A program made the position numbers and the translations under genes. A stretch of DNA of 64,000 nt, taken from positions 124,001-188,000 of the forward strand of contig AP026158.1 of the NCBI GenBank assembly GCA_030295235.1. Reading direction: 5' to 3'. The notes under the pieces were generated by a model that had not been told where the DNA came from, did not search any database, and was given only the letters and a program-made list of their open reading frames with translations. The stretch is from Fistulifera solaris. Its lineage: Eukaryota > Bacillariophyta > Bacillariophyceae > Naviculales > Stauroneidaceae. Positions 4,566 to 51,456 of the stretch are shown here, in pieces; the first letter of the stretch is position 1; the number at the start of each line of letters is the position of its first letter.

Positions 4566-5846
4566 TTATAAGCGGGTTCCCTTTCCTTTTCCATACACTC
4601 CCTCTTTTCCAGGCCGTGAACTTCCCTTTCCGGACACAGAAGAACTCCCTTTGCCGTAAGTTGCACCACCTTTTCCCAAACCACTATCTATTCCATTGCC
4701 TTTTCCCAAACCACTACCTTTACCAGAATTGTTACTTTTTCTTGAACTGGCTTTTTTCGGAACTGCTGCCTTTCCCCGAAATGCCTTTGCCGGAACTCCT
4801 ACCGTTGCCCGCACTACCCTTGCCGGACGGTTGGTGGCTCTTTTGGATTTCTTGCGGTATTCCGCCTCGTACAAATGGGTTGGAGAATCCGACATGGACG
4901 GTGTGTAGGTTGACGGTACAACCGTGGAGGTGGTTACGAATGGAATGGTGGGCTCTAAAGTGGGAACATCCGATGGCATTTCAGATAAGAGGGTGGGTAC
5001 CGATGAAGGCATGGTCGTAGGTATGGTTGTGACAGCCGGAACTGGTGTGACCAGTTTCGTGGGTGTTTCAGACGACACTAGGGTGGGTACTTCTGAACTA
5101 GCCACTACTGCAGTTGGAAGAATTGTTTCAGTTGCTTGGAACAGTGTTGGTAAATTCGTGGGCCGTGACGATGGTGGTGATGATACGGTGGGCACAGTCG
5201 TCGTTGGCTTGGTCGTTGTGAGTTCGATCGTTGTCGGTACCATCGTCATCGGCGGTGTCGTTGCATTACTGATTACTTCTTGTAAGCATAAATTATGAAA
5301 CGTCCATCCCATGGAAAGTGACCGAATCAAAATTGTGACCGTATTATTAGGGATGTTCGTCAAATTCAAGGACGTGGTGACGGGATGGAAGCTATTCCAG
5401 TCTTCTGTGACCGCCAACGAATCGACCGTCGCATAAATTTCTTGCGTCTCATAATCTTCGACGCGAAAACTCCCCTCGCCGAGTGGACTCGTGATACTCA
5501 TAGTCAAATTGTAAATTGTGGTGGTGGTGGTGTTATTATTATTGAGCGGAATCGAATACGCCAACCAATCGCCTTCATCCAACCATCCAATATGGTTGCA
5601 ATCGATGACAATGCCTTTAGATTGCATGAAATTACTGGCATTAAAAAAGACTTGACATTGACTGTGATTGTATTCATTTGTAGGCAAATTGTAGTCATCG
5701 ACGGCATCAGGTTGAAACATATCCGGAGTGACGAGTTTGAGTGTCACACCATTCTTTTCGACGTATTCGAGATTCCGACGGACTTGTTGTGCCCGAATTG
5801 GAGAAAGGAGGAGGAGGAGAAGGAACCAGGGCAGTGATCTCGACAT
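4566..5846 (-). CDS. Secreted CBM6-like protein with PT-rich linker and silaffin-like K/S/G tail
   Basis: Protein of 426 residues with signal peptide (MSRSLPWFLLLLLLSPIRAQ). Residues about 65-195 form one carbohydrate-binding-module-6-like beta sandwich: GWLDEGDWLAYSIPL, SITSPLGEGSFRVEDYET and SLSMGWTFHNLCL match the GW(I/L)D.GDW, SP.G.G and .GW(N/T). landmarks. Then comes a long Ser/Thr/Pro/Val linker (about 200-330) suited to O-glycosylation. A strongly basic C-terminal part follows with many KxxK and GKG steps (KKASSRKSNNSGKG, GLGKGNG, YGKGSSS), like silaffins and other silica-associated proteins. CBM6 modules bind beta-glucan or xylan-type chains. Inference: a wall protein tethering polysaccharide to silica. 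It is the first of three CBM6-like genes on this strand within 6.4 kb. The reading frame is intact. Confidence 0.8.
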   Translation of the reverse strand: MSRSLPWFLLLLLLSPIRAQQVRRNLEYVEKNGVTLKLVTPDMFQPDAVDDYNLPTNEYNHSQCQVFFNASNFMQSKGIVIDCNHIGWLDEGDWLAYSIPLNNNNTTTTTIYNLTMSITSPLGEGSFRVEDYETQEIYATVDSLAVTEDWNSFHPVTTSLNLTNIPNNTVTILIRSLSMGWTFHNLCLQEVISNATTPPMTMVPTTIELTTTKPTTTVPTVSSPPSSRPTNLPTLFQATETILPTAVVASSEVPTLVSSETPTKLVTPVPAVTTIPTTMPSSVPTLLSEMPSDVPTLEPTIPFVTTSTVVPSTYTPSMSDSPTHLYEAEYRKKSKRATNRPARVVRATVGVPAKAFRGKAAVPKKASSRKSNNSGKGSGLGKGNGIDSGLGKGGATYGKGSSSVSGKGSSRPGKEGVYGKGKGTRL

Positions 5847-6390
5847 CGTCGTGTATGTGCTGTGTGCAGTTGCTTATGACATAATAATAATAGGAGTATC
5901 TGAAGAAGGTTTCCGAGAGACGATGATGTGTTGTTGGGCTTCCTGTCTTTTTTTTGTTCTGTTTGTAGTGGATTTTCGTTTGCTAGAAAAAGTCCCGAAA
6001 ATTCAAAATTTTGGATGAAACGCGGTATGACGAAATGTCAATCTTTACGAGCTCCTCTCCGATGCGACGGGTGACGAACGCACCACACACGTTAGTGCCC
6101 AAGAAAAAAAAAAGTGAACGCGAGGAGCGACAATAATCATACAAATTATTACTACCTGGTACTACGTAGCAAAGGAACGACAAAACGACAATGATAATAA
6201 AAGAGAAAAAAGACCTTCATCTTTCTCATTTGACCATTTGCTTCCGATTATCATTCTAGTTATGCAAGATGAGATGACTGCAAGGAGGAATATTCAGATT
6301 GAAAGCCTTCCTTTGAGGAGAAGAACAAGAAGAAGAAGAACAAGAAGGGAAAGGAAACGGCGACACGAGTATTCTTCCTCTTTTGTAATC
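5847..6390. other. Divergent promoter region between the CBM6-like gene and the helicase
   Basis: About 540 bp with no convincing gene. ACTACCTGGTACTACGTAG at 6151-6169 belongs to the recurrent GTAC motif class. The purine-rich stretch 6280-6365 is open in the helicase frame but precedes the signal peptide and is treated as leader. Confidence 0.5.
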
Positions 6391-7929
6391 ATGAAGAAAC
6401 ACTCCAATTTACTTTCCTTTCTTGTATCATTCTTTGCTTTCTTCATCCTTCTAGCACCTTTATCGACAACAAACTCCTTTCTTTTGACAACCAAAAACAC
6501 TCGACCCCTTCCATTCTTCATCGCTAGCATCTACCAAAGTGACGGCGCCTTGGATCAAACAGATACTTTATTGCAGCGTTATCAATACCAATTACCCTCT
6601 TGGTTATTACAACGATGTCAGGATTTGGGTTATATACATCCCACACGCATTCAAATAGCCGCTCTCGATGTTTTATTGCTAGACGAACACAAACCCGATG
6701 TCGTGATACAAGCCGAAACGGGTAGTGGCAAAACCTTGTGTTATTTGTTACCTACACTGGCAGCGATCGATCCCACGCGATCGACAGTGCAAGCCATCCT
6801 GGTGGTACCGACCCGAGAATTGGGACTCCAAGTCGCCAAAGTCGCGAAACGTCTCGTCGCGGCTTCTCCCCACAAAATCTATATCATGAGTGTGTTGCAG
6901 GGCAGTCAGAATCGTCGACAACGGGCTTGGGCCTGGGCAGAACCACCGCAAGTTGTGATTGGAACACCGGAAGAATTGTCAAAAATGGTTCAATTGGGTG
7001 GTATCAAACGTTACAATAGTATTGAAATGGTCGTCGTCGATGAAGTTGATGCTTGTTTGTTGAACAATGCCGGGAGTTTGCAACTAGCGGCCTCGCCATT
7101 GCACGAATTGTTATCGAAACAATTGAGTGCGACATTTTTAGACAAAGACGAAGTTGAAGATACAATGGGAGCTTTGTCGTCGACTCGTCCCAAACGACGA
7201 TTGCACGCCCGGCAAACGATCTTGTGCTCTGCTACCATTCCTCAACACAAACATTTTATCAAACAATGTGTCCAGAATCGATGGACGACGACTGAACCCG
7301 TTTTGGTGGCGCTACAAACGGGAGAGCAATTGTTACCACCGACCTTGGAACATGTGTATATGGTATGTCGTCCCGAAACCAAATTGGCGGCGTTGAAACG
7401 ATTTTTTCGCAAATTGTTATCCTCTCCGGTGCCTTTTAAAGTACTGGTGTTTGCCGAAGAACAACGGCCTTTGGAAGAAATGGCACTAGCGTTGGCGTGG
7501 GAAGCAGAACACGGTGTGTATTGGCAAGAATCCACGGCGAAAGCAGTGCAAGACAATCCAACAGACAAACCGATTCAGGCGATCACGGCAGTGTTGCGCT
7601 ATCAAGATAATCTGACGCAGCGTGCGGCAGCGATGGATGCCTTCACAAGATCGGACGACGACATTGTGCGTGTTCTCTTTTCCACCGATTTGGCAGCACG
7701 AGGTTTAGATGTCGCCAATGTCACGCACGTCATTCATTTCGATTTACCTCCGGATGCCGATACGTACGTTCATCGCGCGGGGCGTACAGGACGACTGGGT
7801 CGTTCAGGACAAGTTCTCAGTTTCGTGGCGCCGGAACAAGAATTTGTGTTGAATCGTTTGGCGAACAAACTGTCGCTCGACTTGCGATGCGTTGCGCGAC
7901 AAAAGAAGGCGACATCCAAAGCAAATTAA
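6391..7929 (+). CDS. Plastid-targeted DEAD-box-type RNA helicase with a DEVD motif II
   Basis: Superfamily 2 RNA helicase of 512 residues from the Met at 6391. This start is preferred over an upstream in-frame one at 6238 because it begins a signal peptide ending LSTTNS followed by F, the bipartite plastid signal of diatoms. Motifs in order: Q-motif-like PTRIQIAAL, motif I AETGSGKT, Ia VPTRELGLQ, GTPEEL, motif II DEVD rather than DEAD, motif III SAT, IV-like FKVLVFAEE, V STDLAARGLDVANVTHVIHF and VI HRAGRTGRLG. All residues needed for ATP hydrolysis are present. Likely role: RNA unwinding in plastid rRNA maturation or translation. The frame is intact, unlike many neighbours. The closest partner organelle could be the mitochondrion if the signal peptide reading is wrong. 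Confidence 0.85.
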   Translation: MKKHSNLLSFLVSFFAFFILLAPLSTTNSFLLTTKNTRPLPFFIASIYQSDGALDQTDTLLQRYQYQLPSWLLQRCQDLGYIHPTRIQIAALDVLLLDEHKPDVVIQAETGSGKTLCYLLPTLAAIDPTRSTVQAILVVPTRELGLQVAKVAKRLVAASPHKIYIMSVLQGSQNRRQRAWAWAEPPQVVIGTPEELSKMVQLGGIKRYNSIEMVVVDEVDACLLNNAGSLQLAASPLHELLSKQLSATFLDKDEVEDTMGALSSTRPKRRLHARQTILCSATIPQHKHFIKQCVQNRWTTTEPVLVALQTGEQLLPPTLEHVYMVCRPETKLAALKRFFRKLLSSPVPFKVLVFAEEQRPLEEMALALAWEAEHGVYWQESTAKAVQDNPTDKPIQAITAVLRYQDNLTQRAAAMDAFTRSDDDIVRVLFSTDLAARGLDVANVTHVIHFDLPPDADTYVHRAGRTGRLGRSGQVLSFVAPEQEFVLNRLANKLSLDLRCVARQKKATSKAN

Positions 7930-8028
7930 AAAAGATACAATAAAGTTGATTTATGTATTACATCATATCATTGAATAAATTGGTTTATTACGAGACACAG
8001 GGCAGCGACTAGTCAGCAGATTTTTGAA

Positions 8029-9356
8029 CTAAGTCCAAAACCACGTGTCTGGATTCGAATCTGATCGAACGGGTGAAGACTGTGTCATTTCCTTGTCTCG
8101 TTGTTGTTGTTGTTGCTGAACTTCCGAGCGAGACACGACCGGCGCTGCTTGTTCTCGGGGTGCCCATGTGGGTGGCCTAACGGGAGCACGTGTCGGTTGT
8201 GCCAAGCGAGTGGTGGTCGGTGACAGCGTTGGCAGCAACGTTGGTCGAGCGCTTGGCTTGGACACGGGTGATCGTGTCGGTGTTCCGGTGGGGACTGGTG
8301 TTGCCAGCGTAGTTGGCCTATCGCTAGGTGCTTGCGAGGGATTGGCACTGGTCTTGATTTCTAGTAGCTCGAAGGATAACCACAGCATGTTCCAACCTTC
8401 TTGGACTGGTACGAGCCGCAACGTCAGGGCACCGCCGGGGAATTGCACAACATTACTGATAGTTTCCCAAATTTGCCAGTCTCCTGTTTTGGGGAATGAC
8501 GAAATTTTGCATAGATTTGCATGGTTTCATTGTTCATTATTTGAAAGGCACCCTGCCCCTCTGGACTCGATATCCGTGCTTTGAAATCATACGTTTCCGA
8601 ATACGGCAATTGAATGTTGTATATCACATAATCGGATGGATCCAACCATCCTATGTTCTCCAATCCCTCGGACGATGTTTGCAATTCAGCTCCGTGTAGA
8701 AGGACAAAGTTATCTGCCGCAATCATCGTAAAGTAATTGGGAGGAATCGTAGTAGTCTCCGTTGGAATGGCAGGAGCGAACATTGGTGCATTGACCGTGG
8801 TTTTTCCAAACTCGTTTTCTGATCGTGTCGGATCAAGCGGCTGGAATGAAAAATCCTTCAAATTCCAGCCACCTTGCAACGATCGAATTTCCAAGGGTAC
8901 ATCACCGGTAGGTAATTCCACTGTCACACGGATGGCTTGCCAGCGATTATTATTCCCGACAGAAGGTATACTAAAAATGGTCGCATATTTGGTGCGGGTT
9001 TCCGCATTCCCCACGACAAAGGATCCAGCACCAAAGGGACTAAAAACATTCAATTCCATAACATACCATCCGGCGACCGGTATATGCACATCGTATCGCA
9101 ACCAATCGTCCGCATCCAACGATCCAACGTAATCGGCTCCTTCTACCGTATCAACGCCGTACATGGATATATAATCGGTTCCATGAATAATAAAGATGTT
9201 GCTCGAATTGTGGCTATTCATGAGATACCACATGTTCGATCCACGCGTTTGCACGGACGTAGCATTGTGTGATGACAACGATAGTATTATTAGAAAGAGA
9301 GGCAAAGCCAGGATACGACTACATGGTCTGATAGAGCGTTTCTTCATCATCATCAT
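8029..9356 (-). CDS. Secreted protein with two CBM6-like domains, one apparent frameshift
   Basis: Starts with a poly-Met/basic leader and signal peptide (LALPLFLIILSLSSHNATS). The first CBM6-like domain has GSLDADDWLRYDVHIP, NVFSPFGAGSFVVG and SLQGGWNLKDFSF. A Thr/Pro linker leads to a second with GWLDPSDYVIYNIQLP and RISSPEGQGAFQI, which continues in another frame as LTLRLVPVQEGWNMLWLSFE. The shift falls at a T4 run (A on the coding strand) at 8505-8508; one extra base restores a protein that aligns through the domain with the neighbour at 9895-10941. A Pro/Thr/Arg-rich tail with a short Gln run ends at 8029. Without the correction the protein would stop in the second domain. Extracellular glycan binding is inferred; no catalytic domain is present. 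Confidence 0.75.
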
Positions 9357-9894
9357 CTTTGACGTTGAGATTCATTAGGGAATTTCGAAATGCGATCTAT
9401 GGGCGGAATGAATGGTGTTTGTTCTCCACTTTCATTGGAGATGATGAGAATTTTCATGGGACTTTCGTTTGTTGTATACCCTGCAGAATACGGGGAGTAC
9501 ATTACGAGACAATTTGCACTAGACGCAAACATAGCTCTTATCATAGTTCATTACAAAGTAGTCAGTTGACATTTTACGAGAAAACAAAGAATGTACAGGT
9601 TCCACGACCACAGACAATACGATAATACGATGTGCGTATTTCGCCTTCGCAATTTCTGACGCCACGATGTCACGCATCATTTTCATCACATACAAAGTAC
9701 ATCATCACTCCAAGTGACGGGAAAGGTTGAGAATGAAAAATAGGAAAAAGGGCTAAGGTCGCCAAAACTGCAAGGTAAACTAATGATCGCAATAATTACT
9801 CTAGCTCAGCTGCTATGCAACTTGAGTACAAAGTAGTAGGTTTTTGTCCATTACTCCTTATGTTACAGGAGCCAATATTCGAAAAGAATGTAGA
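9357..9894. other. Intergenic region between tandem CBM6-like genes
   Basis: About 540 bp, presumably the promoter of the gene ending at 8029. It contains two TACAAAGTA copies (9691-9699 and 9827-9835). No gene is seen. Confidence 0.5.
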
Positions 9895-10941
9895 TTAGTT
9901 CGCATCATTGAACAAAACAACGGGAGTGGAAACATCAATCAATGGCTCTAGTTGCAGCTCGAGTACGATCCACAACAAATTCCATCCGTGCGATAGAGCT
10001 CGTATTTCCAATGATAAGTCACCAGCTGGTAAATCAACGCTTGTTGTGATAGTTGCCCATGTTTGGAAGCTGCCGGTGGACGGTAGCTCGGTCACTGTAG
10101 CGTAGACTTCACCGCTGACTTGGTTGCGGATTTGAAAGGCCCCAATTCCTTCCGGACTCGCAATCCGAGCTTTGAACAAAAAGACGCCTCGTACGGGTAG
10201 ACTTAGTTGATAAGCGACATGATCACCACGATCAATCCAATAGAGATTTTTGAGACCCTCAATCGAGTCTTGTACTAGCATGCCTTGCATTTCACTGTAG
10301 GTAGCCGACGCAATCATGGTACGATAGGGTTGATTCGTCAGGTCACCTTGGCGAGCAGTATTGGTTCGGGTTATATTAACAAGGGGATTGACAGAAGGAG
10401 CAGCGTTTGTGGAATTGTTGAGGACAGGAGGTAGACCTGACGTAGCATCAATTTGTGCAACAGAAAGCCATTGGAGGCCCCAACCTTCCGCAACAACTTG
10501 CAAGGTTAATAGTACAAGACCTTTCGGCAAGGTTAGTTCAACTTTTACAGAGGTAAATTCGTCCCGAGCGGTCGCCATCGGCACTGTATTCGCACTCGCG
10601 TACACTTCATTCGTTACGCGGTTGACCACTTGGAAAGCGCCTTCTCCCAGTGGACTCGAAAGGCGAACCTCTAGCAAATACTGCCCAGCTTCCGGTAAAT
10701 CCAGGGCATATGCAACCCAGTCGCCTTTATTAAACCAGAATAATCCATTCGTCGCATCCTTCACAATCGCTCCATTCTTTTCGATGAAACTCGACGCTGG
10801 TATTCTCTTTTCGAACTTCTTGACACCATTTTCTGCCTGCAAAGTCCGCGCGCCCCGAAGTGTTGAGCGGCTTATTCTATCGGCCTTTGTGATGAAGAGA
10901 TAAAGTAAAAGAGAAAGAGTACTTGTTTTGAAAGATCTCAT
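9895..10941 (-). CDS. Secreted protein with two CBM6-like domains
   Basis: Protein of 348 residues with an N-terminal signal peptide (STLSLLLYLFITKADR). The first CBM6-like domain (about 40-165) has LFWFNKGDWVAYALDLP, VRLSSPLGEGAFQVV and VAEGWGLQWLSV. The second (about 205-335) has LYWIDRGDHVAYQLSLP, ARIASPEGIGAFQI and LSHGWNLLWIVLE. The Asp/Trp and Gly-Trp-Asn landmarks of CBM6 are kept. It lacks the long PT-rich region of its two paralogues and has no GPI or membrane segment, so it is probably soluble in the wall or exopolymer. The frame is intact. Three related genes on one strand with the helicase inserted between them suggest local duplication. Confidence 0.8.
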   Translation of the reverse strand: MRSFKTSTLSLLLYLFITKADRISRSTLRGARTLQAENGVKKFEKRIPASSFIEKNGAIVKDATNGLFWFNKGDWVAYALDLPEAGQYLLEVRLSSPLGEGAFQVVNRVTNEVYASANTVPMATARDEFTSVKVELTLPKGLVLLTLQVVAEGWGLQWLSVAQIDATSGLPPVLNNSTNAAPSVNPLVNITRTNTARQGDLTNQPYRTMIASATYSEMQGMLVQDSIEGLKNLYWIDRGDHVAYQLSLPVRGVFLFKARIASPEGIGAFQIRNQVSGEVYATVTELPSTGSFQTWATITTSVDLPAGDLSLEIRALSHGWNLLWIVLELQLEPLIDVSTPVVLFNDAN

Positions 10942-19117: not shown

Positions 19118-20932
19118 TCAGGAAACATGCATCTCATTTTGGCCTGCTCGTAGATTCGTCATTGTAAGGAATTTGGATAGGCTGGTGTTACTGCCATTTC
19201 TTCGAAGGTCACCTTCATTTCTTTTCTGGTTGCGATTCGCTCTAGTATCATCATGCCTAGAAGAAGCCAGGTCAATTAGCTTGAGATCGCTCTGGGTCCT
19301 TTCAGCGAGTGGCATTTTACTCTTCTCAGCCCCATCGACGATGAAAACGTCCATAATACTGGCTTTTCGAATATTATCTCCTTTATTCTTGTCGCTTCGA
19401 GTACTTTGTAGGTAGTCACGATCGCTCCAGTATTGGTCTGCGGAAAGATGTGGATTAACGTGACTTCTTCGATGAGCAGGCTTCACGTCGCCGTCGTCGT
19501 CGTCAGGACAGTTCCTTCTGCTTCGCCGCTGTCCCTTTACTTCATCATCGCCAAGTAGTAAAGCATTTGTACTTTTACTTTTTCGAATAGTTCCACCGTC
19601 TACTTTCTTGTCTTCGTTTTGTCGAAACTCATCCTCCGCATCAGATAATCTTGGATTGCTATGCGTCCTGCGAGGAGCAGGCTTCGCGTCGCCGTCGTCG
19701 TCGTCAGAACAGTTCCTTCTGCTTCGCCGCTGTCTCTTTACTTCATCATCGCCAAGTAGTAAAGCATTTGCACTTTTACTTTTTCGAATAGTTCTACCGT
19801 CTACTTTCTTGTCTTCGTTTTGTCGAAACTCATCCTCCCCATCGGATAACCTTGGATTGCTGTGCGTCCGGCGAGGAGCAGGCTTCACATTGAAATTGCC
19901 GTCAGAACCGTTCCATGGACTTCGCCGCGGTCTCCCTTCTTCCTCATCATCCACGAGTAAAGCATTCAAACTGCGGCTTTTTCGGATTTTTGTTTTGTTT
20001 TGCAGCTCTGAGACTAGAGGACTAGTCTCACTTAATTCTTTCGGATGTCTTTCACAACAGACCAAGTCGGACCAAAAGTTTGACCGTCCGTTGTCGTGGT
20101 GTTTCTCGCTCTGTCCGCTTCCGTGGTCCATCCATGTCATGGACGCCTTTGAAAATTTTTTTCTCATGGTTATCACCAAGTGACCAAGCATGCGAAAATA
20201 AAGACTGGGATGACCGATTTAAGGTTTGGACCTTCTGCCACAATAGGGGTGACCACTCGTTTTGTTGAGGTGAACATTCAACGACAACATGTGTTGCGGT
20301 AGGTGCAACGACTTGTCCTATCTTGGAACTGTTCCAGTTTGGATCCGCATGAAGTATTTCATCATTCAAGTAAGAATTGGCTCCCAGGCTTCCTCGGCGT
20401 TGTGCAGCTCCCGAGCGTCCTCCTGGGACCAGCTCTTTCATCGAAGACGAATGTCCAAGGCTTTTCCGGCGTTGACACGTATTGAAAATAAATGCATCAG
20501 CAGAGTCATTCGCTGAAGAAGAATCAAAAGGGCATTTTCAAAGCTAGCAAGGCGTTGGCGATGCTGACTTCCAAGGACTATGTCGCAGGTAGAAAGCGTA
20601 CTTCCCAAACTTGCACGGCGTTTGGCGGCTCCAGATAGTACGGGTTGTTGCTTCAAACTTTTCAAGTCATTGAAATGATGCTGCTTGTTAGTGGCATACT
20701 TTTCTCTGGTTCTGTGTGATCGGGTATTTCGATGTGCGCGTGGATTATTGTTTCTACGTCTTTGTTTAAGATGGAGTGATGATTTTGTTGATGAGCCGTG
20801 TCTAAGGTCATTTGTCTCGCTGTTCTCGACGAATCGATGATTATCATCGTAGCTATCCGACAAGGACGATGTTGAGGCAGTGAGTAAGGAAGTTTCGTCG
20901 CTGTTGCAGTTTGCACGTTCGACGTCTCGCAT
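19118..20932 (-). CDS. Hypothetical protein with repeated RRxS phosphosite motifs and 67-residue repeats; two apparent frameshifts
   Basis: Three overlapping frames form one protein of about 605 residues. The N-terminal half has spaced sites KRRASLGS, QRRKSLGHSS and QRRGSLGAN. The C-terminal half has tandem ~67-residue repeats, each with a KSxS.NALL..D box (RKSRSLNALLVDD, RKSKSANALLLGD, RKSKSTNALLLGD, then RKASIMDVFIVDG) and an RRTHSNPRLSD box. These are basophilic-kinase (PKA/CaMK-like) and possible 14-3-3 sites. No folded domain or membrane segment is seen. The frames join at A4 20526-20529 (one base short) and T7 20156-20162 (one base long). Between them lies a more unique stretch including EWSPLLWQKVQTLNRSSQ. 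Probably a multisite phosphorylated regulator or scaffold; the role is unknown. Confidence 0.6.
19470..19990 (-). repeat. ~201-bp tandem coding repeat, about 2.5 copies
   Basis: The block starting GTTCCTTCTGCTTCGCCGCT at 19511 recurs at 19712 (201 bp on) and, more diverged, at 19910. Each copy codes the KSxSxNALL and RRTHSNPRLSD boxes of the surrounding gene. Confidence 0.85.
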
Positions 20933-22766: not shown

Positions 22767-23661
22767 TTGAAGAAAACCCAAACAAAAACATTGTCACACA
22801 CACAGAGAGACGTGTCGTCCGATGACATGACATCGGAATCATCATCTAGCTTTCAGGAAGTTGCTGCGTCATGGGAATTGAGTGACGTCGAACAAAAAGA
22901 ACTTGTTGATTTGCAACAACGGCTGCACGATGTTTTACACTGTCCTCTCACCCGATGGCGCGATTTAGTGCGTTTTTTACGAGCCCGTCCGGGAAATGTG
23001 ACAGCTGCCGAAACCATGTTTCGTCAAATGGTCCAGTGGCGGACCGTCCACCAAGTCGATACTATCTTGTCAACGTACACTCCACCCCCCGGAAATGGTA
23101 CGCTATTATCCCGGTGCTTTGTTGGAAGGTTTTGATCGGGAGGGTGATCCAATCTTTGTGTCTCGTTTGGGTGTCACCGATGGTGTAGGCTTGCTGCAAC
23201 GTTACGGAAAAGACGAAATGATTCGACACGCGATTTGGATACGAGAATTAGTGGTACAGAAAGTGAAAGAAGTCGAAGAGAAACGGGGACGTCCCGTACG
23301 GAGAATTTGTCTGGTAGAAGATTTGCACGGCTTGAGCTTGAAAACGCACGGCCAGCGTGCTCTGGTCTCCGTGTATGGAGAAATCATGCGACTCGATCAA
23401 GACAATTATCCCGAAACCGCAAAAAAGTTACTAATCGTCCGTGCCCCTACTTTGTTTCGTATGATTTGGTCCATGGCCCGGCACTTTTTCGATCCTGGAG
23501 TCGTAAGGAAAATGGTGTTTTGTGGTGTCAGTGATTACCGAACTGTACTGGATCAGTATGTGGAGTTAGAGGTTTTACCCGAAGAAATTGTGTCGGGGGT
23601 AGGGCATGGTAAAGCTGTGGTAGGTATGCCATCCAATTTTTCGGGAGGTCGACTGCCATGA
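22767..23661 (+). CDS. CRAL-TRIO (SEC14-type) lipid-transfer protein, one apparent frameshift
   Basis: About 298 residues. The N-terminal CRAL-TRIO-N part has WRDLVRFLRARPGNVTAAET and MVQWRTVHQVDTIL. The lipid-binding domain then runs MVRYYPGALLEGFDREGDPI, CLVEDLHGLSLKTHG, RLDQDNYPETAKKLLIVRAP and TLFRMIWSMARHFFDPGVVR, with the conserved D..NYPE and P..F...W......D landmarks. SEC14 proteins exchange phosphatidylinositol with another ligand and support phosphoinositide synthesis. The two parts join at a C6 run (23085-23090) that seems one base too long. The N-terminus (DDMTSESSSSFQE) is disordered. It lacks GOLD or membrane segments, so a soluble cytosolic protein is expected. Confidence 0.8.
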
Positions 23662-24260
23662 TATAGAGAGAATGAATGAATAGAGTAGAAGTGGGCGTGA
23701 GAAGTTGGGAATAGGGATAACGTTACCGGTGGAGCTATCGTTTCTTTCTTCTTGTTGTAGGTTTCATCAATTCGTCGAGCGCGGAACGCCATCTTGCCCA
23801 GGCCAAGGTTCAGAAAAAAAAAGTGCGAAAAGGCCAGATGAATTGTAGCAGTCTCCGAAAGATCCATTCTTGGATCTTAAAAGAATACTAGAAATGAGTT
23901 ATATCAAAGTCTATTGATTTGTATCTTCAACATTACTTAGACTATGGTCGCTCATTGATTCGTTTCGCCGTGGGTGTACAGATTATAGATACGAAAATGG
24001 CGTATGCTGTTTTCACCTTTTCAGAAAATCTGGGCGTTTGCTGTTTGCACATACCCAGAAAATCTGAAAATGTTTACCGGTGCGTTGTAGGTGCAAGAAG
24101 TGCGCGCGATGGATGATTGATGGCAAAATCTTTGTTTATTGTCATGATGGCATTCATTATTCTATCCGTCTTTATTCTCACACATCCTATTATCTATTTC
24201 GAAAAAGTCGATCGATTACGTGCTACGATAATATTCATTAACAAATAATAGAATGCACAC
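23662..24260. other. Intergenic region upstream of the repeat gene
   Basis: About 600 bp. Contains a short direct repeat around 24021-24070 (CAGAAAATCTG recurs as CCAGAAAATCTGAAAAT). No gene is supported. Confidence 0.4.
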
Positions 24261-27200
24261 ATGACCGGAAGGACAGCCTTTTATACCTCTCTGTGGATAT
24301 CTTCTTTGCTTTCTTGGCCATTGGTGGCGTTTACTACCCCTCGCCCTCCTTGCCAGCCACGTACGACACCAACGTCCATGGCCCCCAATTTCATCGAAAG
24401 TATCCGCCAAACTCTTTTCGGAACCGAGAAAGAGATTCTTCTAAAAGACTTTCCGGTGCCGGATTCGGAAGCGGTACGACGAACACTTTCTCTCATCGCC
24501 GTCCATCCGCAACCAAAAGAGAACCAGAAAACAAAGAAGAACAATATCTTCCTCAAAAACATACAACAATGGTGGAACCAACAGTTACCCGCACGCGATG
24601 TCATTTTGCAAAAGATGTGGAAATTCTCAGTGCGGAGGAATACCTTTCCTTACGTCGGGAATTGCGACCCGATTTTCAAATTCCGAGCAACAATCCACCC
24701 ATCACTGTCGATGTCGAAGAAGAAGCTATCCAACAAGCAGAGATAAACCAGGATGTAATTCGACCAAAATCGGATTCCACACCATCTACCAATTTCGATT
24801 CATTCACCAAGGATCCACCACAGGTGATTCTCACGGAAACCGTTCCACAGACGACTCCAGCTATTGGGAATATGGATGCATTTCGTCCGCAAAACGATCC
24901 TACGACTGTACGTCCGATCTCCTTAGCGACAATTCTGGAAACACAATCGAATCAGCCCGGAAGGTCAACGTCACAGACGTCGTACTTGCAATCGTTGGAG
25001 GTTGCCGTATCTCGTCCGGAGGGAACTTCGCGACAGTTTACCTATTTGGAAAGTCTAGATGCATCCTTGGGCAGCCGCGTCTCTCAGGTACCACGTCGAC
25101 AAGTGTTGTTGGAAGAACCGTGGGTCACTGTCAGTGAATCAAGCAATTTAGACGGGGCAATGATGAAAGAGGAGTCGCTTGAAACGCTTCAAGTCTCATT
25201 TGTTGAGTTACCAAAGCCATCCGTTCCATCGGAAGTAACGACACGGACATCGCGGTCGTACTTGGAATCTTTGGATGTTGCCGTATCTCGTCCGGAGGGA
25301 ACTTTGCGACAATTGTCGTATTTAGAAGGCTTGGATGATTTGGATGCATCGGAATCTTTTGCCGGCCGCATGTCTCAAATTCCTCGTCAACAAGAGGCGG
25401 TGATTAAAGCAATGTCGACCCAACAGGGTTGGGGGACCAGAAAGGAGACCAAATGTTTGCTCGAAGAACCACGGGTCACTTCGAGTGATTCAAACTATTT
25501 GGACGGGGCAATGTTGAGAGAGGAGTCGCTGGAATCGCTTCCACCAGAAAAAGTACAAGAAAGTGTGCAATACTCACTGCCACGAGAGGTCGAAGAATTA
25601 TATGATGCTATCAATACTAACACTGATAATGATATCCGAAACCAACTCGATCAAGGCGGCACATCTGAGTTGACGCAGGACGATACACTCGCAGAAATAG
25701 ACCCAATTGCCTATGGAGTTTCAACACAGCAAGAATCGCTGTTCGCGATGGGCGAATCTGCCGCCGATTCTTACTATTCACAAAGCTCAACAATCAGCAC
25801 GGAAGAAACTGCCGCCAATGAATCCCGTTTCGGTTATCAAACAGAGTCTGCCAATCCAAATATACCACGAAGAGCATCTTTCTCGCCCGTTCGGTCAACT
25901 GTAAAAGACTACAACTCAACCAGTTCCAGCCCGTATCTCGCGTCGCTAAGAGGATTGAAAAACCGTCCATTCCAGTATGAAAAGGAACCAATTACTGATA
26001 CATGGAAGTCTAAGAAATCGTTTGAAGCGACAACTATCGGATCATTTTCACCCGTTCGTGCTTCTATCAAGAATGTAAATTCCACAAGCTCCAGTCCATA
26101 TCTTGATACTTTACGTGGGCAAGTAATTGCGCCATTCGATTTCAAAGCAGCAACGTTTGCTGCATCAGCGAAAAGATGAATCCGTAACGCCCAATAAAGA
26201 TGCCACTCCGCTGGCGGCTGTCACTCCGAATCAATCTGCAACACAAGAATCATTTGCGGATGACAAGTTGTGGTCAGCGCAACCCACAAAAGCTTCCTTC
26301 GCCCCCGTACGCCCAGGAGTTAAAAACGTCGATGCTACAAGTTCTAGTCTCTATCTCACTGCTTTGCGAGAAACAACGACACCACAGCCTCGCATGAAAT
26401 CAATAAAACCGAAAGTGACAGTCAATACGCAAGCAAATCTGTTACCAACTGTAGGATTAAAAGACGAGAATAAACGACCTCGACCCATGGGTGCATCCTT
26501 TTCGCCAGTGCGGTCTTCAATTAAAAAGATGAACTCAAAAAGTTCCAGTCCGTATCTCGACGCACTGAAAGGACGGACAATGAAGTCCTTCGAAGCGATG
26601 CCTGTCACTCCGCTCCCTGCAAATACCATATCAAAGTCCCCAACGCGTCCTCCCGGTGCTTCCTTCTCGCCTGTTCGCTCGACAATAAAGAATGTTGACT
26701 CGACCGGTTCCAGTCCGTATCTTGCCACGCTCAAAGGACGAACAATGGCATCATTCGAATCCTTGTATGGTGCCAACCCAACTTCGGACGAACCATTCAT
26801 GTCATCGGCAACAGAGACAGAACCATCTCGACCCATGGGTGCATCCTTTTGCCAGTGCGGTCTTCAATTAAAAAGATGAACTCAAAAGTTCCAGTCCGTA
26901 TCTCGACGCACTGAAAGGACGGACAATGAAGTCCTTCGAAGCGATGCCTGTCACTCCGCTCCCTGCAAATACCATATCAAAGTCCCCAACGCGTCCTCCC
27001 GGTGCTTCCTTCTCGCCTGTTCGCTCGACAGTAAAGAATGTTGACTCGACCGGTTCCAGTCCGTATCTTGCCACGCTCAAAGGACGAACAATGGCATCAT
27101 TCGAATCCTTGTATGGTGCCAACCCAACTTCGGACGAACCATTCATGTCATCGGCAACAGAGACAGAACCATCTCGACCCATGGGTGCATCCTTTTCGCC

Positions 27201-30200
27201 AGTGCGGTCTTCAATTAAAAAGATGAACTCAAAAAGTTCCAGTCCGTATCTCGACGCACTGAAAGGACGGACAATGAAGTCCTTCGAAGCGATGCCTGTC
27301 ACTCCGCTCCCTGCAAATACCATATCAAAGTCCCCAACGCGTCCTCCCGGTGCTTCCTTCTCGCCTGTTCGCTCGACAATAAAGAATGTTGACTCGACCG
27401 GTTCCAGTCCGTATCTTGCCACGCTCAAAGGACGAACAATTGCATCATTCGAATCCTTGTATGGTGCCAACCCAACTTCGGACGAACCATTCATGTCATC
27501 GGCAACAGAGACAGAACCAGCTCGACCCATGGGTGCATCCTTTTGCCAGTGCGGTCTTCAATTAAAAAGATGAACTCAAAAAGTTCCAGTCCGTATCTCG
27601 ACGCACTGAAAGGACGGACAATGAAGTCCTTCGAAGCGATGCCTGTCACTCCGCTCTCTGCAAATACCATATCAAAGTCCCCAACGCGTCCTCCCGGTGC
27701 TTCCTTCTCGCCTGTTCGCTCGACAATAAAGAATGTTGACTCGACCGGTTCCAGTCCGTATCTTGCCACGCTCAAAGGACGAACAATTGCATCATTCGAA
27801 TCCTTGTATGGTGCCAACCCAACTTCGGACGAACCATTCATGTCATCGGCAACAGAGACAGAACCAGCTCGACCCATGGGTGCATCCTTTTCGCCAGTGC
27901 GGTCTTCAATTAAAAAGATGAACTCAAAAAGTTCCAGTCCGTATCTCGACGCACTGAAAGGACGGACAATGAAGTCCTTCGAAGCGATGCCTGTCACTCC
28001 GCTCTCTGCAAATACCATATCAAAGTCCCTAACACGTCCTCCCGGTGCTTCCTTCTCGCCTGTTCGCTCGACAATAAAGAATGTTGACTCGACCGGTTCC
28101 AGTCCGTATCTTGCCACGCTCAAAGGACGAACAATTGCATCATTCGAATCCTTGTATGGTGCCAACCCAACTTCGGACGAACCATTCATGTCATCGGCAA
28201 CAGAGACAGAACCAGCTCGACCCATGGGTGCATCCTTTTCGCCAGTGCGGTCTTCAATTAAAAAGATGAACTCAAAAGTTCCAGTCCGTATCTCGACGCA
28301 CTGAAAGGACGGACAATGAAGTCCTTCGAAGCGATGCCTGTCACTCCGCTCTCTGCAAATACCATATCAAAGTCCCTAACGCGTCCTCCCGGTGCTTCCT
28401 TCTCGCCTGTTCGCTCGACAATAAAGAATGTTGACTCGACCGGTTCCAGTCCGTATCTTGCCACGCTCAAAGGACGAACAATGGCATCATTCGAATCCTT
28501 GTATGGTGCCAACCCAACTTCGGACGAACCATTCATGTCATCGGCAACAGAGACAGAACCAGCTCGACCCATGGGTGCATCCTTTTCGCCAGTGCGGTCT
28601 TCAATTAAAAGATGAACTCAAAAGTTCCAGTCCGTTTCTCGACGCACTGAAAGGACGGTCAATGAAGTCCTTCGAAGCGATGCCTGTCACTCCGCTCCCT
28701 GCAAATACCATATCAAAGTCCCCAACGCGTCCTCCCGGTGCTTCCTTCTCGCCTGTTCGCTCGACAATAAAGAATGTTGACTCGACCGGTTCCAGTCCGT
28801 ATCTTGCCACGCTCAAAGGACGAACAATGGCATCATTCGAATCCTTGTATGGTGCCAACCCAACTTCGGACGAACCATTCATGTCATCGGCAACAGAGAC
28901 AGAACCAGCTCGACCCATGGGTGCATCCTTTTCGCCAGTGCGGTCTTCAATTAAAAGATGAACTCAAAAGTTCCAGTCCGTATCTCGACGCACTGAAAGG
29001 ACGGACAATGAAGTCCTTCGAAGCGATGCCTGTCACTCCGCTCTCTGCAAATACCATATCAAAGTCCCTAACACGTCCTCCCGGTGCTTCCTTCTCGCCT
29101 GTTCGCTCGACAATAAAGAATGTTGACTCGACCGGTTCCAGTCCGTATCTTGCCACGCTCAAAGGACGAACAATGGCATCATTCGAATCCTTGTATGGTG
29201 CCAACCCAACTTCGGACGAACCATTCATGTCATCGGCAACAGAGACAGAACCATCTCGACCCATGGGTGCATCCTTTTCGCCAGTGCGGTCTTCAATTAA
29301 AAAGATGAACTCAAAAGTTCCAGTCCGTATCTCGACGCACTGAAAGGACGGACAATGAAGTCCTTCGAAGCGATGCCTGTCACTCCGCTCCCTGCAAATA
29401 CCATATCAAAGACCCCAACTCGTCCTCCCGGTGCTTCCTTCTTTTCTGTTTGTTCCAGCCCATATTTCGATGGGCTTAACGGTATTTCAACGAAATCATT
29501 TGAAGCGATGCCTGTCACTTCGGTTCCTGTAGATGCAGCAACAACAACAACACCAGCAAAAGCCATACATTCCCTTGCTTCCTTCTCCTCAGTCCATTCC
29601 TCGATGAAAAAATTTGATTCGACCGGTACTACTCCCTTCCTTGATGCGGTGAAGGGGCTTACCATGCCATCCGTCGGTCGTGAAGGATCATCTGTTTCAC
29701 TATCACGCCAAACAATCAACACGTCTCAACAGTCGGCTGATTTGCACAAGTACAGCTCAAATTCTGAAAAACAAGAACTTCGCAGTACAGATCAATCATC
29801 TACAATCAATGAGACTAGCAAACCCTGTTCTGTGGTTTTGACGAACCTGTCAGGCAATCGCCCCACACCAGAGAGTGAGGATTTCCGCGGGTTGTCCAGT
29901 TTAGAATATAAGGAGAATAATCAACCCGCTTCCCAGGACTTGAAAATTTGGCTAAATGAAGCTCGCAAGCACGCACCATTGCTTCAAGCAGGTCCTGATA
30001 AACCCGATTTGAAAAATAGAGTTCCAATGATGTCGTCGCCTATAGCGGGTCCGTACCTCGACAAGCTTACCTCGTCACCTCGTCAGGAATCACCCAAGCC
30101 ACAGGGTAGCTCTAAGGTTCACAAAACGAGCCGATGGTTGCCTAGAAACGGTGGAGGCCCCGACGCAGCTGACTTGAAACATAAAGTACTGATGTCTTCA

Positions 30201-30242
30201 TCTTCATCGAACCCTTACTTGGATAGCTTACAGCAAGACTGA
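24261..30242 (+). CDS. Plastid-targeted, disordered tandem-repeat protein; candidate Rubisco linker of the pyrenoid
   Basis: About 1995 residues if apparent single-base indels are allowed for. The start at 24261 gives a signal peptide ending SWPLVA followed by FTTPRPPCQ, the diatom plastid signal. Residues about 40-610 are Ser/Thr/Glu/Gln-rich with SYLQSLEVA, TYLESLDAS and SYLESLDVA motifs. From 25860 comes the basic motif ASFSPVR.xIKN.NSTSSSPYLxxLRG, then eight and a half 116-residue repeats (26487-29440). Each repeat holds two ~58-residue halves built on GASFSPVRSSIKKMNSKSSS-PYLDALKGRT. The protein ends NPYLDSLQQD. No folded domain is seen. Known Rubisco linkers (EPYC1, PYCO1) share plastid targeting, disorder, basic charge and evenly spaced binding motifs, but not this sequence. 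Frames change at A4 runs 24610 and 26171 and at short runs inside the array; total loss in the array is a multiple of three. Confidence 0.7.
26487..29440 (+). repeat. Tandem array of 348-bp coding repeats, 8.5 copies
   Basis: Copies start at the ATG of CCCATGGGTGCATCC at 26487, 26835, 27181, 27529, 27876, 28224, 28571, 28917 and 29263 (last one about half). Spacing is 348 bp or 346-347 where one or two bases are missing, always at TTTTCGCC, AATTAAAAAG or CTCAAAAAGTT. Otherwise the copies differ by only a few substitutions (for example CCATCTCG/CCAGCTCG, CTCCCTGC/CTCTCTGC), so they are recent or homogenised. Each unit contains two related ~58-codon halves, showing an older internal duplication. 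The minus strand is also open through much of the array, a side effect of the periodicity. Confidence 0.95.
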
Positions 30243-47979: not shown

Positions 47980-48822
47980 ATGAAACTTCTTGTGTTATCC
48001 TTATTGATTAGCAGCTCGGCTGCCGCGCAATTACAAACGCAACAGCAACCCAGCAGTCGTCCGCGTTGGGGGCGTCAACTCCACCAGGCGCTACCGCTCC
48101 AACGACAGCTCCGAGACGATGGCTGCACCTTTGATAAACTCATGAACCAAACGTGTCATTTATGGGAATTTTGTGTGGATTTGACGTTTGATTCCAACGT
48201 TGAAGTCCGATGTGGTGGTAACATTGATGCCGATTGGTACATTTTTATGGACGCGGAAGAAGTGTGTTACAACGATCTTCCAGAAGAACTGGCTCAATCG
48301 ACTGGATCATTGAACTATTGTTCTAGGGAGCAGGGCTATTTGAATTTCACGAAAAGTGCTTTGGTGTACTCGGAAGTGACAGAAATTATCACGGCTCCCG
48401 TCCAAGGGACACTTCACGAAGTTTATCGAATTTCGGAATGCGACAGCAGTCCCGCCGATTACTACTTCGGACGGGCGTTCTGCAATGATCCTTGTCCCTA
48501 TCTAATGAATGTAGGAGGGATAAGTTGCAACGGAGTTTGTCAAGAATGTTCCGATGGAAGGATGGTTCTCAATTGTGCCGACATTAGCCCAGGTCTCGTC
48601 GAACGATGCGATGCTTCCGACAACATGTACATCTATCAAGAATACTTCAACTTCTTCCAAGAAAAGATTCTGCTGGAAGAACAGCGTATTTCGGAAGAAG
48701 AGAACACCTCGGAAGAAACGGAATCAAGCGAAGTGGCCGACGAGGCATCAACAGCAACAGTAAGAACAAAATCGTGGATGATGATTTCGGTGGTCATCGC
48801 CGGATTTGCTCTTTGTTGCTGA
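47980..48822 (+). CDS. Secreted Cys-rich protein, member 1 of a tandem family (probable GPI anchor)
   Basis: Protein of 280 residues with signal peptide (MKLLVLSLLISSSAAAQ). The mature domain starts CTFDKLMNQTCHLWEFC and shares with the genes at 51457 and 52898 an ordered Cys pattern: CxFDxx...C...(E)FC, YCSRE.GY.NFTK, (V/I)TAPVQ, PCPYLMNVGGISCNGVCQEC, SDG..VLNCADISPGLVERC. An acidic Glu/Ser stretch and a C-terminal hydrophobic segment (MISVVIAGFALCC) fit a GPI signal. No known family is recognised; cell-surface adhesion or recognition is a guess. Frame intact, no intron. Confidence 0.7.
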   Translation: MKLLVLSLLISSSAAAQLQTQQQPSSRPRWGRQLHQALPLQRQLRDDGCTFDKLMNQTCHLWEFCVDLTFDSNVEVRCGGNIDADWYIFMDAEEVCYNDLPEELAQSTGSLNYCSREQGYLNFTKSALVYSEVTEIITAPVQGTLHEVYRISECDSSPADYYFGRAFCNDPCPYLMNVGGISCNGVCQECSDGRMVLNCADISPGLVERCDASDNMYIYQEYFNFFQEKILLEEQRISEEENTSEETESSEVADEASTATVRTKSWMMISVVIAGFALCC

Positions 48823-49082
48823 AAGGTGATGTTCTGTATCGATTCCGATGTATTGCAATTATATAATAGTCTACTTAGGCCCCCAGGGTCACTACTTTTT
48901 GTCTGGCTCTTAGTATGCAGTCCCTTTAGCTTAAGTCCGCAAAAGGCATAAGGTGGAATTTTGGTTGATGCTACGCTACAAATCTATCAAAGATTACTTG
49001 CCACTACATCATTCTTGAACGAAAAGGTCACAACTCCTTGCTTACCGCGTTACTTCCTAATGTCTGTTGCCAAAGAAATAAA

Positions 49083-49424
49083 ATGAAGGTTTCATACTTG
49101 TCCATGGTACTCTCCCTGTCTATGGGTGCCTCAATCCGGCACCAACACAGCAAAGGGCTGACTCGTAAACTGGAAGAAAATTTGTCGACGATTTTGCCAG
49201 GTACTCCAGTGCCTACGACTGCGCCCACAACGGCATTACCGACGATCTTGCCTGCCATTGTTGATACTGGAATGCCAACGATTTTTCCTACCATCGTGGA
49301 CACAGGGCCTCCCACGACGGAAGATGACTTCCAAACCGAGGGTCCTACGCCAATCGTATCGTCAGGGTCACTTGTTTGCGATAGTGCACGAGCTGCCATT
49401 GCTATTGTCGCCGTTCTTTTTTAA
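49083..49424 (+). CDS. Small secreted PT-rich protein (probable GPI anchor)
   Basis: 113 residues from the Met at 49083 (MKVSYLSMVLSLSMGASIR, signal peptide). The body is Pro/Thr/Ile/Val-rich with a repeated (L/F)P(A/T)IVDTG(M/P)P step, suited to O-glycosylation, and ends with a short hydrophobic tail (ARAAIAIVAVLF) like a GPI signal. It shares the PAIVDT element with the gene at 50184. An upstream in-frame Met at 49038 does not start a signal peptide. No folded domain is present. Confidence 0.6.
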   Translation: MKVSYLSMVLSLSMGASIRHQHSKGLTRKLEENLSTILPGTPVPTTAPTTALPTILPAIVDTGMPTIFPTIVDTGPPTTEDDFQTEGPTPIVSSGSLVCDSARAAIAIVAVLF

Positions 49425-50183
49425 GCTTAACGGTACGAACGGAGCATAATGGTTGATATATGTAGAGTCTTATATTCATCGAAGCCAATTCCTTCTTGTT
49501 GTCGTCGCGTTCACTGTGCGAAGGTAGAGATCGTCGTAGCGTTCACTGCGCAAAGAAATAGCTCGTCTCATGTAGGGTAGTGCTAGCGATCGAACTGCTT
49601 TGCTTATAATAAACCCTCGAAACATTACCACCAGGATCAGCAATTGAGTTGCGCATCCCGGCAATAACTCCGGCGACCATTTTTCGGACGAAAAGCCAGT
49701 CACATGTTCACTTTTCTATCAAATGACGAACTCATTTCGGGTGCATGTACCTTTAAGAATGTAATTTTTCCTTATCTGGTAGTTTCCAAAACATAGTTGC
49801 CTGGCGATGTCCTGTGCCCTCTACCCGTAAGCATAGTTGCCTTGCGATTTCCTGTGCCCTCTTTCCGTAATCATACCATAATATTATTATGAGCTCGCCC
49901 CGACCGACAAAGTCACGTTTCACGTAGATTCAGCCGATGCATTTCATCGTCTTGTTGCGGCAGGACATTGGCTGTGCATTAGATAAAAACCATAAAACGA
50001 GAAGTTTGGTGATTTCCGGCACTCCGAGTCGATGGTATGTCACGTCTTGCTTTTTGGAACAGGGTATTCTCATCTTGAATGAAAGGAAGGCGACAAGAAG
50101 ACTCCTTTTGTTTCTCTCACAAAGGAATCCATTCCGTATTCGCGACTTTTGCACATACTTTTCGAACACAATAAACCAAAACC
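49425..50183. other. Intergenic region with a 40-bp tandem duplication
   Basis: About 760 bp. Contains two imperfect 40-bp units at 49792-49871. Open stretches at 49476-49703 (minus) and 49937-50248 (plus) show no domain. No gene is supported. Confidence 0.5.
49792..49871 (+). repeat. 40-bp imperfect tandem duplication
   Basis: The unit CATAGTTGCCTGGCGATGTC... at 49792 recurs at 49832 as CATAGTTGCCTTGCGATTTC..., both continuing CTGTGCCCTCT and ending CCGTAA. About four to five differences separate the two. Confidence 0.9.
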
Positions 50184-50636
50184 ATGAAGACAGCACTCGC
50201 ATCAATTTTGTTTCTCGCCATGAGCGCACAGGGCCATTTCATCCATGATGATTCACGTGATTTACAAGATAACGTCACCGATGCTACTCCTACGATCGTT
50301 CCAGCGATTGTTGATACGGCGGAGCCTACCGTGTCTCCCACTGTCGCCCCCGATCCCACTGTCGCACCCACGGCACAAGACACTCCGGAACCGACGATTG
50401 CTCCCAATATTCCTCCCACCGTTCCTCCCACGGTGACACCAACCATTGCCCCCACCACACCGGCTCCTACCGTAGCGCCGACGGTGGCACCAACCGTCGC
50501 ACCGACGGCCATTGAAGTGACGATTGAAGTGAATGGAACCGAAGTACCGGCGCCGGCTCCGACGTCAGGATCGTCTTGGGTTGACGGAGTGCAGCCATTT
50601 TTGGTTCTCTTGGGCGTTACCGTCTTGTTTCTTTAA
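50184..50636 (+). CDS. Secreted PTxAP-repeat protein (probable GPI anchor)
   Basis: 150 residues. Signal peptide MKTALASILFLAMSAQG, then an array of PT(V/I)AP units (PTVAPDPTVAPTAQD, PAPTVAPTVAPTVAPT), a short EVTIEVNGTEV strand-like piece and a hydrophobic C-terminus (VQPFLVLLGVTVLFL) that fits GPI attachment. Such mucin-like rods form stalks of wall or adhesive proteins. It belongs with the five same-strand secreted genes at 47980-53698. The frame is intact. The start is chosen because the Met begins the signal peptide. Confidence 0.65.
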   Translation: MKTALASILFLAMSAQGHFIHDDSRDLQDNVTDATPTIVPAIVDTAEPTVSPTVAPDPTVAPTAQDTPEPTIAPNIPPTVPPTVTPTIAPTTPAPTVAPTVAPTVAPTAIEVTIEVNGTEVPAPAPTSGSSWVDGVQPFLVLLGVTVLFL

Positions 50637-51456
50637 AGACAACGATGGTAGATTGTGCGGATCGACATTTTTTCTCCAGGGAAAACGCAATGAACCAAAA
50701 AGACGTTTGCTCTGACTGGTCCCCAACACTTCGGAGTCTCTCTTGGCTGTTATAGAAAATTGAGTCTTGTTTGTGTATCGTATCTTTCATCAAAATCTTT
50801 TCAAAATTGAATTGTTAGACAGCATTTCGTCTTTATTACCGCAAACGCGCAATGTTATGACTCTGGCTGGGGGTATTTTGGCACTCTCGTCGTCCACGCC
50901 GTGTTACCAGGTATTGTTTTGCACAAATAATAATACTCCATTTTGAAATGGGGAGTGGTTGACAGACGAAAATGAAGCGCGTAACGTACAGAATGTAAAC
51001 AACCAGTTCGACACCAAGGGGGGACCGAGCTCCCACTTGCGGGGAGGACGCAACAAAGCAAAGATCTTTCTACAGCATGCTCATCGCTACTACTTTGTAT
51101 AACGTAGATATTATATTATACTGATATTTATTCCTAATTCCTAATTTCAAGGTTTGTTATAGCCTGTTTGTTCGGACCGTCCCGGCGATTATCGTTAGCT
51201 CGCAATAAGGTTAATGTCAGTCATCAAACGCTGCCACGGTCATTTGATCATGCTACACTGCAACCTAGTCATAACCTATTCTATAGAACCAAGTGTAGTG
51301 CGCGTTTCACTTTTTGGCGCACCGTTCGTTCGATCCAAGAAGCTCGTAAGAGATGCGAGCAACAAGATGCCGCCAAAAGCCATTCTCTGTGAATCGGAAA
51401 ACTTGAATAAAATTCATTGTAAAAGTAATCTATTCATTTCGCTTAGAACAAAAAAG
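50637..51456. other. Intergenic region, no gene recognised
   Basis: About 820 bp. Contains ACCAGGTATTG near 50908 and CTACTTTGTATAACGTAG near 51089. An open frame from 51214 leads into the next gene but lacks signal features before 51457. Confidence 0.4.

Follow-up and report, generated by a model that had tools for sequence, protein, structure and literature searches.

A candidate plastid sticker-and-spacer protein with repeated bipartite modules in apparently nuclear DNA of a diatom-like alga

We describe a candidate gene at 24261-30242 on the plus strand of a DNA window (the whole stretch of 64,000 nucleotides that was analysed), which appears to be a nuclear gene of a diatom-like alga and would encode a plastid-imported, intrinsically disordered sticker-and-spacer protein. 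According to the model that we propose, about two dozen bipartite modules, each composed of a basic, aromatic SFSPVR half and an SSPYLxxL[KR]G half that may form a mini-helix, would follow an acidic N-terminal body and be carried by a basic chain at a spacing of 55-61 residues. The putative client is Rubisco: the PYLxxL mini-helix together with the positive charges flanking it would dock weakly on a site that is repeated on the L8S8 holoenzyme, and one chain could bridge several Rubiscos and condense them by phase separation to form the pyrenoid matrix, in the manner of EPYC1 and PYCO1. We regard the wider reading, a plastid sticker-and-spacer scaffold, as probable, and put forward the narrower one, a Rubisco linker that works like EPYC1 and PYCO1 and is a member of neither family, tentatively and at somewhat less than an even chance; both weights are judgements and not computed values. 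If the candidate is a linker, its 28-residue module provides a searchable pattern for pyrenoid proteins in other diatoms.

Genomic setting and reading frames of the candidate gene

The window appears to derive from the nuclear genome of a diatom or a related alga, with the assignment to a diatom based on the presequences and the gene content. Its GC content lies between 42 and 49% (2-kb steps), and the genes around the candidate are eukaryotic, namely those for CRAL-TRIO, DEAD helicase, cyclin, DUF846, carbonic anhydrase, kinesin, Yip1 and Mod(r) proteins; a SpoU-type methylase also occurs in the window, with a score below its curated cut-off. A tRNA search of the window gave no match, and neither did a promoter and terminator scan of 23600-24300, which used a bacterial consensus not made for this organism.

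Several further features were recorded along the window. At 2119-3646, about 21 kb from the candidate, lies the gene for a signal-peptide-bearing carbonic anhydrase of eukaryotic type (PF00194), which either occupies two frames or is interrupted by an intron; as the gap leaves room for an intron, the split was rejected as proof of an assembly error. The DEAD-box helicase at 6391-7929 carries a plastid-type presequence (TTNS^FLL, by eye), and the N terminus of a 122-residue ORF at 61320-61685, for which Pfam returned no match, resembles a plastid presequence with W at +1 (SYSWA^WNN, by eye). Three similar minus-strand ORFs at 4566-10941 begin in the manner of signal peptides and contain recurrent segments resembling GDW.AY (by eye), a row of three similar cysteine-containing ORFs with signal-peptide-like starts occupies 47980-53698, and three similar adjoining ORFs of the short-chain dehydrogenase type, a Pfam assignment made on the first only, lie at 55200-59610. 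A 201-bp tandem repeat of 2.1-2.5 copies (19470-19966) sits within the minus-strand ORF 19118-20191, which is basic-looking, contains RKSKS..ALLLGDDEV units and had no match in Pfam.

The earlier note on this DNA had described 24261-30242 as encoding one protein. In this assembly the region is not a single open frame: the frame is broken near 24500, near 26170 and within the array. Frame 2 is open to 26179 and frame 0 from 26127 to 26879, after which the frames alternate through the array. An acidic body of 453 residues, predicted to be disordered (24482-25840, plus strand, as are all segments of the gene), carries four [ST]YLxxL motifs at 24983, 25043, 25259 and 25319. It is followed at 25868-26378 by three diverged 28-residue modules (25874-25957, 26039-26122 and 26292-26375), with the frame change near 26170 falling in this segment; an intron at 26170 was considered and judged, by eye, to be too short. 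The tandem array proper (26479-29442) consists of 8.5 units of about 348 bp, each combining a module a (SSPYLDALKG) and a module b (SSPYLATLKG). A C-terminal tail of 295 residues in a single frame (29355-30242, from the ORF list) completes the gene, with degenerate modules at 29463 and 29637, a PYLDKL at 30054 and a final PYLDSLQQD preceding the stop.

The frame breaks in the array are most simply read as homopolymer errors left unpolished because the units are almost identical. Anchored array units are spaced by 348, 346, 348, 347, 348, 347, 346 and 346 bp, so that the length of 348 bp is kept in three of the eight complete units and lost in five. All nine single-base length differences, a count that leaves out the shortened second half of unit 9, fall at three columns at or beside T or A runs, namely column 23 (2/9 units), column 43 (2/9) and column 57 (5/9). 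Eight of nine substituted columns amongst the recent 348-bp units alter the amino acid (translated by hand), with two inside modules, and the recent array copies therefore show no sign of purifying selection. This, together with the five units that have lost their length, speaks for a decaying gene, in which the frame breaks are real, the array has expanded without constraint and no full-length protein is made. We nevertheless consider real decay improbable, given that the length differences are confined to three columns at or beside A or T runs, that an ordinary neighbour is broken in the same way and that the 295-residue tail past the array stays open with conserved motifs. The neighbour in question, a CRAL-TRIO lipid-binding gene at 22767-23661, is distributed over two frames with continuous domain order; its N-terminal domain reaches 21.4 bits against a curated cut-off of 23, and the main domain lies in another frame, at a distance of 94 bases. 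The split resembles the presumed assembly indels of the array.

Long ORFs of up to 244 residues also run antisense through the array (26868-29264, minus strand), and in three array units the codon score is 0.11-0.13 on the reverse strand as opposed to 0.00-0.01 in sense. An antisense gene was rejected because in four segments the same antisense frame meets stops where the sense strand has none (16 in the acidic body, one in the first modules, two in 26178-26840 and seven in the tail), and because pN/pS is lowest in the sense frame, at 0.30 versus 0.41.

The repeated module, its copies and its predicted structure

In the alignment of the copies, conservation extends over a bipartite module of 28 residues, ASFSPVRSxIKxVxSTSSSPYLxxL[KR]G, with about equal conservation of its halves SFSPVR and SPYLxxL. 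The SSPYLxxLKG motif that had previously been proposed as the sticker is present, but makes up only half of the unit. Between 25934 and 29637 we counted 22 SPYL-type modules in any plus-strand frame, a few of them with variant letters (e.g. SSLYL, SSPFL and TTPFLDAV); with two C-terminal PYLDxL copies (30054 and 30216) and four N-terminal [ST]YLxxL copies (24983-25319) this amounts to 28 YLxxL-type motifs, leaving aside an imperfect YLDGA at 25496, and bears out the earlier estimate of roughly two dozen. Seven stop-free pieces totalling 1617 residues, which exclude the presequence and the frame-broken parts and so do not stand for the whole gene, contain 20 YLxxL-like motifs, whereas 2000 shuffles gave 0.47 on average and never more than 3. 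The pattern [SGNTPQ][SPT]YL..L is found 21 times inside the gene (plus strand) versus three times elsewhere (six frames), where the matches sit in open stretches of 45, 41 and 33 residues.

As to the spacing, the even interval of about 58 residues claimed at first is found in the array pieces, where 55 and 61 residues alternate (mean 58), but does not extend beyond them: successive motifs are separated by 20, 72 and 20 residues in the acidic body, by 55 and 67 upstream of the array and by 58, 139 and 54 within the tail. The YLxxL core appears in three sequence settings: the acidic body has it as [ST]YLxxL, the repeats as SPYLxxL and the C terminus as [GN]PYLDxL. Its codons differ amongst the three, which argues that the core is conserved and did not arise by recent copying alone. 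The presence of this core in both acidic and basic settings could also mean two clients, and all the sequence evidence is neutral with regard to the client. The candidate might then be a plastid sticker-and-spacer scaffold serving something other than Rubisco, be it as a tether between the matrix and the protein shell or the thylakoid or as an organiser of another stromal enzyme; motif-bearing Chlamydomonas proteins besides EPYC1 are proposed to tether the matrix to tubules and sheath. We take such a client seriously while thinking it unlikely, since at least 20 copies at a spacing close to that of EPYC1 suit a bulk network linker, whereas a tether would be expected to need few motifs. Rubisco is kept as the putative client.

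Six diverged modules were compared codon by codon in the sense frame, giving a pooled pS of 0.776, a pN of 0.233 and a ratio of 0.30, values that come from 15 non-independent pairs of six copies picked as diverged and in frame. The same ratio is 0.41 in the mirror antisense frame and 1.23-2.25 in the remaining four frames, and the differences at codon positions 1, 2 and 3 number 125, 76 and 278. Synonymous change in these six modules is near saturation with few amino-acid changes, and purifying selection on the diverged module copies is supported.

The repeat pieces (pI 8.1-10.1) and the tail (pI 9.1) are basic, as had been described for the repeat body, but the roughly 450 residues ahead of the repeats are acidic, with a pI of 4.5 and a net charge of -33 for 24482-25840. 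The fraction of Q+N, 0.033-0.106 by segment, speaks against a prion-like domain. In agreement with the earlier note, the chain is predicted to be largely disordered, as suggested by its composition and by the AlphaFold2 models of two pieces: the stop-free array stretch 27543-28301, run with five other gene pieces, has a mean pLDDT of 47.8, and 24293-26176, run as a single sequence, one of 36.6. The array model contains predicted helices at residues 17-23, 72-78, 133-139, 188-195 and 201-205, which cover four of four PYLxxLK motifs, with the fifth helix (201-205) lying off the motif; the 10-residue blocks holding the four motif helices have low pLDDT values of 46-60. The single-sequence model has helices at 114-123 and 431-454 only, and none of its six YLxxL motifs is helical. 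Formation of a mini-helix on the PYLxxL motifs is suggested by one of the two models.

Presequence, predicted targeting and possible joining to the repeats

An ATG at 24261 in frame 0 opens the candidate in the ORF list with MTGRTAFYTSLWISSLLSWPLVA^FTTPRPP. The start ATG and the presequence at 24261-24500 (plus strand, frame 0), as delimited by the ORF list, codon log-odds and the +1 rule, give MTGRTAFYTSLWISSLLSWPLVA^FTTPRPPCQPRTTPTSMAPNFIES..., and the full frame-0 reading from 24261 is MTGRTAFYTSLWISSLLSWPLVAFTTPRPPCQPRTTPTSMAPNFIES. We read 24261-24500 as an ER signal peptide followed by a plastid transit peptide with F at +1 (SWPLVA^FTTPR), the cleavage site VA^F being placed by eye. The high-confidence class of ASAFind requires one of F, Y, W and L as the first residue (+1) behind the signal peptide, and periplastidic proteins are described as having no phenylalanine or similar residue at this position (PMC12136025). 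The VA^F of the candidate conforms to this rule, as judged by eye, and in terms of anatomy and +1 residue the plastid presequence noted earlier (SWPLVA, then F) holds up, while its joining to the repeats is possible only.

A crude six-frame rule of a signal peptide plus an aromatic residue matches 18 of 525 ATG tails in the window and is therefore weak by itself; on the reversed window it matches 6 of 86. With so loose a rule, a signal peptide assigned by eye and an S+T+P content of 34-41% in the repeat pieces and the tail, the candidate could also be a secretory-route protein that ends up outside the stroma, either in the cell wall, in silica or as an adhesive with Ser/Lys-rich repeats, or a periplastidic protein. 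This we judge to be improbable, because F at +1 marks plastid proteins and is absent from periplastidic ones (PMC12136025), and because F or W at +1 was read by eye in three of the 11 signal-peptide-like ORFs in the window, one of them the candidate. The candidate would be imported into the plastid, with the stroma as its presumed destination.

When codon log-odds are trained on the remaining ORFs of the window (7396 codons), frame 0 is preferred in the scoring windows starting at 24351-24441 and frame 2 from the one starting at 24471 onward; over 24261-24500 as a whole, the score per codon is 0.02 for frame 0 and -0.08 for frame 2. In the three scoring windows starting at 24261-24321, frame 2 scores higher than frame 0 and is also stop-free, and codon usage alone is for this reason no proof of the presequence. 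The point at which frame 0 gives way to frame 2 was placed at approximately 24470-24546 (plus strand) by the codon log-odds and a GT-AG script, and can be a one-base assembly error or a nearby intron. The script found 62 GT-AG pairs bridging frames 0 and 2, and VA^FTT is kept in 49 of the 59 pairs of at least 50 bases that it printed; as it took the presequence as exon 1 beforehand, this result denotes possibility only, and the presequence exon is possibly joined to the repeats.

The first frame-2 ATG after 24293 is located at 24569, downstream of the frame change, and translation from this internal start, with a separate presequence exon, would produce a nuclear or cytosolic phosphoprotein whose SP.R motifs are cell-cycle kinase sites. 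The count of [ST]P.[KR], 41 inside the gene (plus strand, any frame) versus 123 in the rest of the six-frame window, is in line with such a product. The frame-2 coding signal, however, begins about 90 bases before the ATG at 24569 and abuts the frame-0 signal, and joining is possible by those 49 of 59 listed pairs, albeit from a script that presumed a joined exon 1; the internal start consequently has a very slim chance in our estimation. For the plastid protein that we favour, the conserved SP.R sites beside each sticker are compatible with control by phosphorylation, and they could equally be kinase sites of another protein type; for Chlamydomonas, a kinase, KEY1, is the subject of a 2026 paper.

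Relatives and comparison with known Rubisco linkers

A viral contig collection queried with the array protein, the module alignment and the acidic body, and a prokaryote genome collection queried with the array protein and the acidic body, yielded no confirmed relative. Two ordinary neighbours from the window likewise had no match in the viral contigs, and the missing relatives say little because the collections consist of viral contigs and prokaryote genomes only. Five gene pieces had no Pfam match above the gathering cut-off, the array piece had none amongst PDB chains with phmmer, the array model had none in the PDB with Foldseek, and a PDB query built from the published PYCO1 motifs retrieved no chain. 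The titles and abstract beginnings of the open-licence literature, a scope that lies outside the 2024 Cell papers on the diatom pyrenoid, contained no report of such a protein, and a search for YLxxL-type strings returned no pyrenoid title among the matches listed; the novelty of the linker candidate is provisional. PYCO1 is the sole diatom Rubisco linker named in the portions of the literature examined: a May 2026 review, in its accessible part, gives PYCO1 as the diatom linker and names no other, and the excerpted PYCO1 study reports that BLAST found no homologues in other algae (PMC10288592).

A base rate for linkers is available from the FLIPPer screen, which looks for disordered proteins whose structured elements recur every 20-120 residues and returned 13 proteins in Chlorella, one of them common to a Rubisco co-IP (PMC11570498). 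Since 13 proteins had the features and one was common to the co-IP, linker anatomy alone confers a modest probability, and it is the presequence, the spacing and the copy number that raise this base rate to the weights given above for the Rubisco linker and the scaffold. The array spacing of 55/61 residues is within the range of 20-120 and one tail gap measures 139. The likeness to CsLinker of Chlorella and the FLIPPer class, a disordered chain with repeated elements 20-120 residues apart, is one of criteria; CsLinker was confirmed by co-IP, whereas the candidate is known here from sequence alone.

As judged by the defining motifs, the candidate is outside both the PYCO1 and the EPYC1 family, in line with the earlier note, which had its motif down as neither the KWSPR type of PYCO1 nor the EPYC1 helix. 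The Rubisco-binding motif of EPYC1 has the form [DN]W[RK]xx[LIVA]; in this form it occurs zero times inside the gene. Inside the gene (plus strand, any frame) there is also no KWSP or WSP corresponding to the small-subunit sticker of PYCO1 (KWSPR/Q) and no GTGYNP, GYNP or YNP corresponding to its tyrosine motif, nor does the gene contain a W.SMN corresponding to the large-subunit helix (EWxSMN). A linker with another sticker would mean that fast-changing, unrelated proteins build diatom pyrenoids. More specifically, the candidate could be an independently evolved second linker of Form ID (red-type) Rubisco, with more than 20 bipartite stickers (PYLxxLKG plus FSPVR) and an acidic N-terminal YLxxL domain, a proposal that we hold to be rather doubtful. 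If it were true, PYLxxLKG would be an EPYC1-like amphipathic mini-helix and FSPVR a PYCO1-like aromatic-Ser-Pro-Arg element, unrelated linkers would build diatom pyrenoids and one alga would unite both known sticker principles.

EPYC1 is described as having four 60-residue repeats (PMC6265248) and five evenly spaced helical stickers. The candidate resembles it in its disordered, positively charged chain with short, evenly spaced helical stickers, the helices here being predicted in one model, and in its repeat length (mean 58 versus 60 residues). It differs in carrying about two dozen stickers instead of five and in the sticker being bipartite and devoid of Trp, and EPYC1 works with green-lineage Rubisco. 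PYCO1 of Phaeodactylum tricornutum has six repeats of about 80 residues, a pI of 10.03 and W and Y stickers, with the Trp and Ser of KWSPR holding the sticker tetrad (PMC10288592). PYCO1 and the candidate have in common tandem repeats, a pI near 10 (up to 10.1 in the repeat pieces of the candidate), a plastid presequence assigned under one rule (with ASAFind in the case of PYCO1) and two aromatic motifs per repeat, W and Y in PYCO1 and F and Y in the candidate, whose FSPVR recalls KWSPR by motif letters alone. The candidate departs from PYCO1 in its shorter repeat (58 versus about 80 residues), in having many more repeats and in a Q+N content of 3-11%, which is not prion-like by that proxy. 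Its acidic N-terminal body is without counterpart in the excerpted descriptions of EPYC1 and PYCO1, and by analogy the candidate may still work like them.
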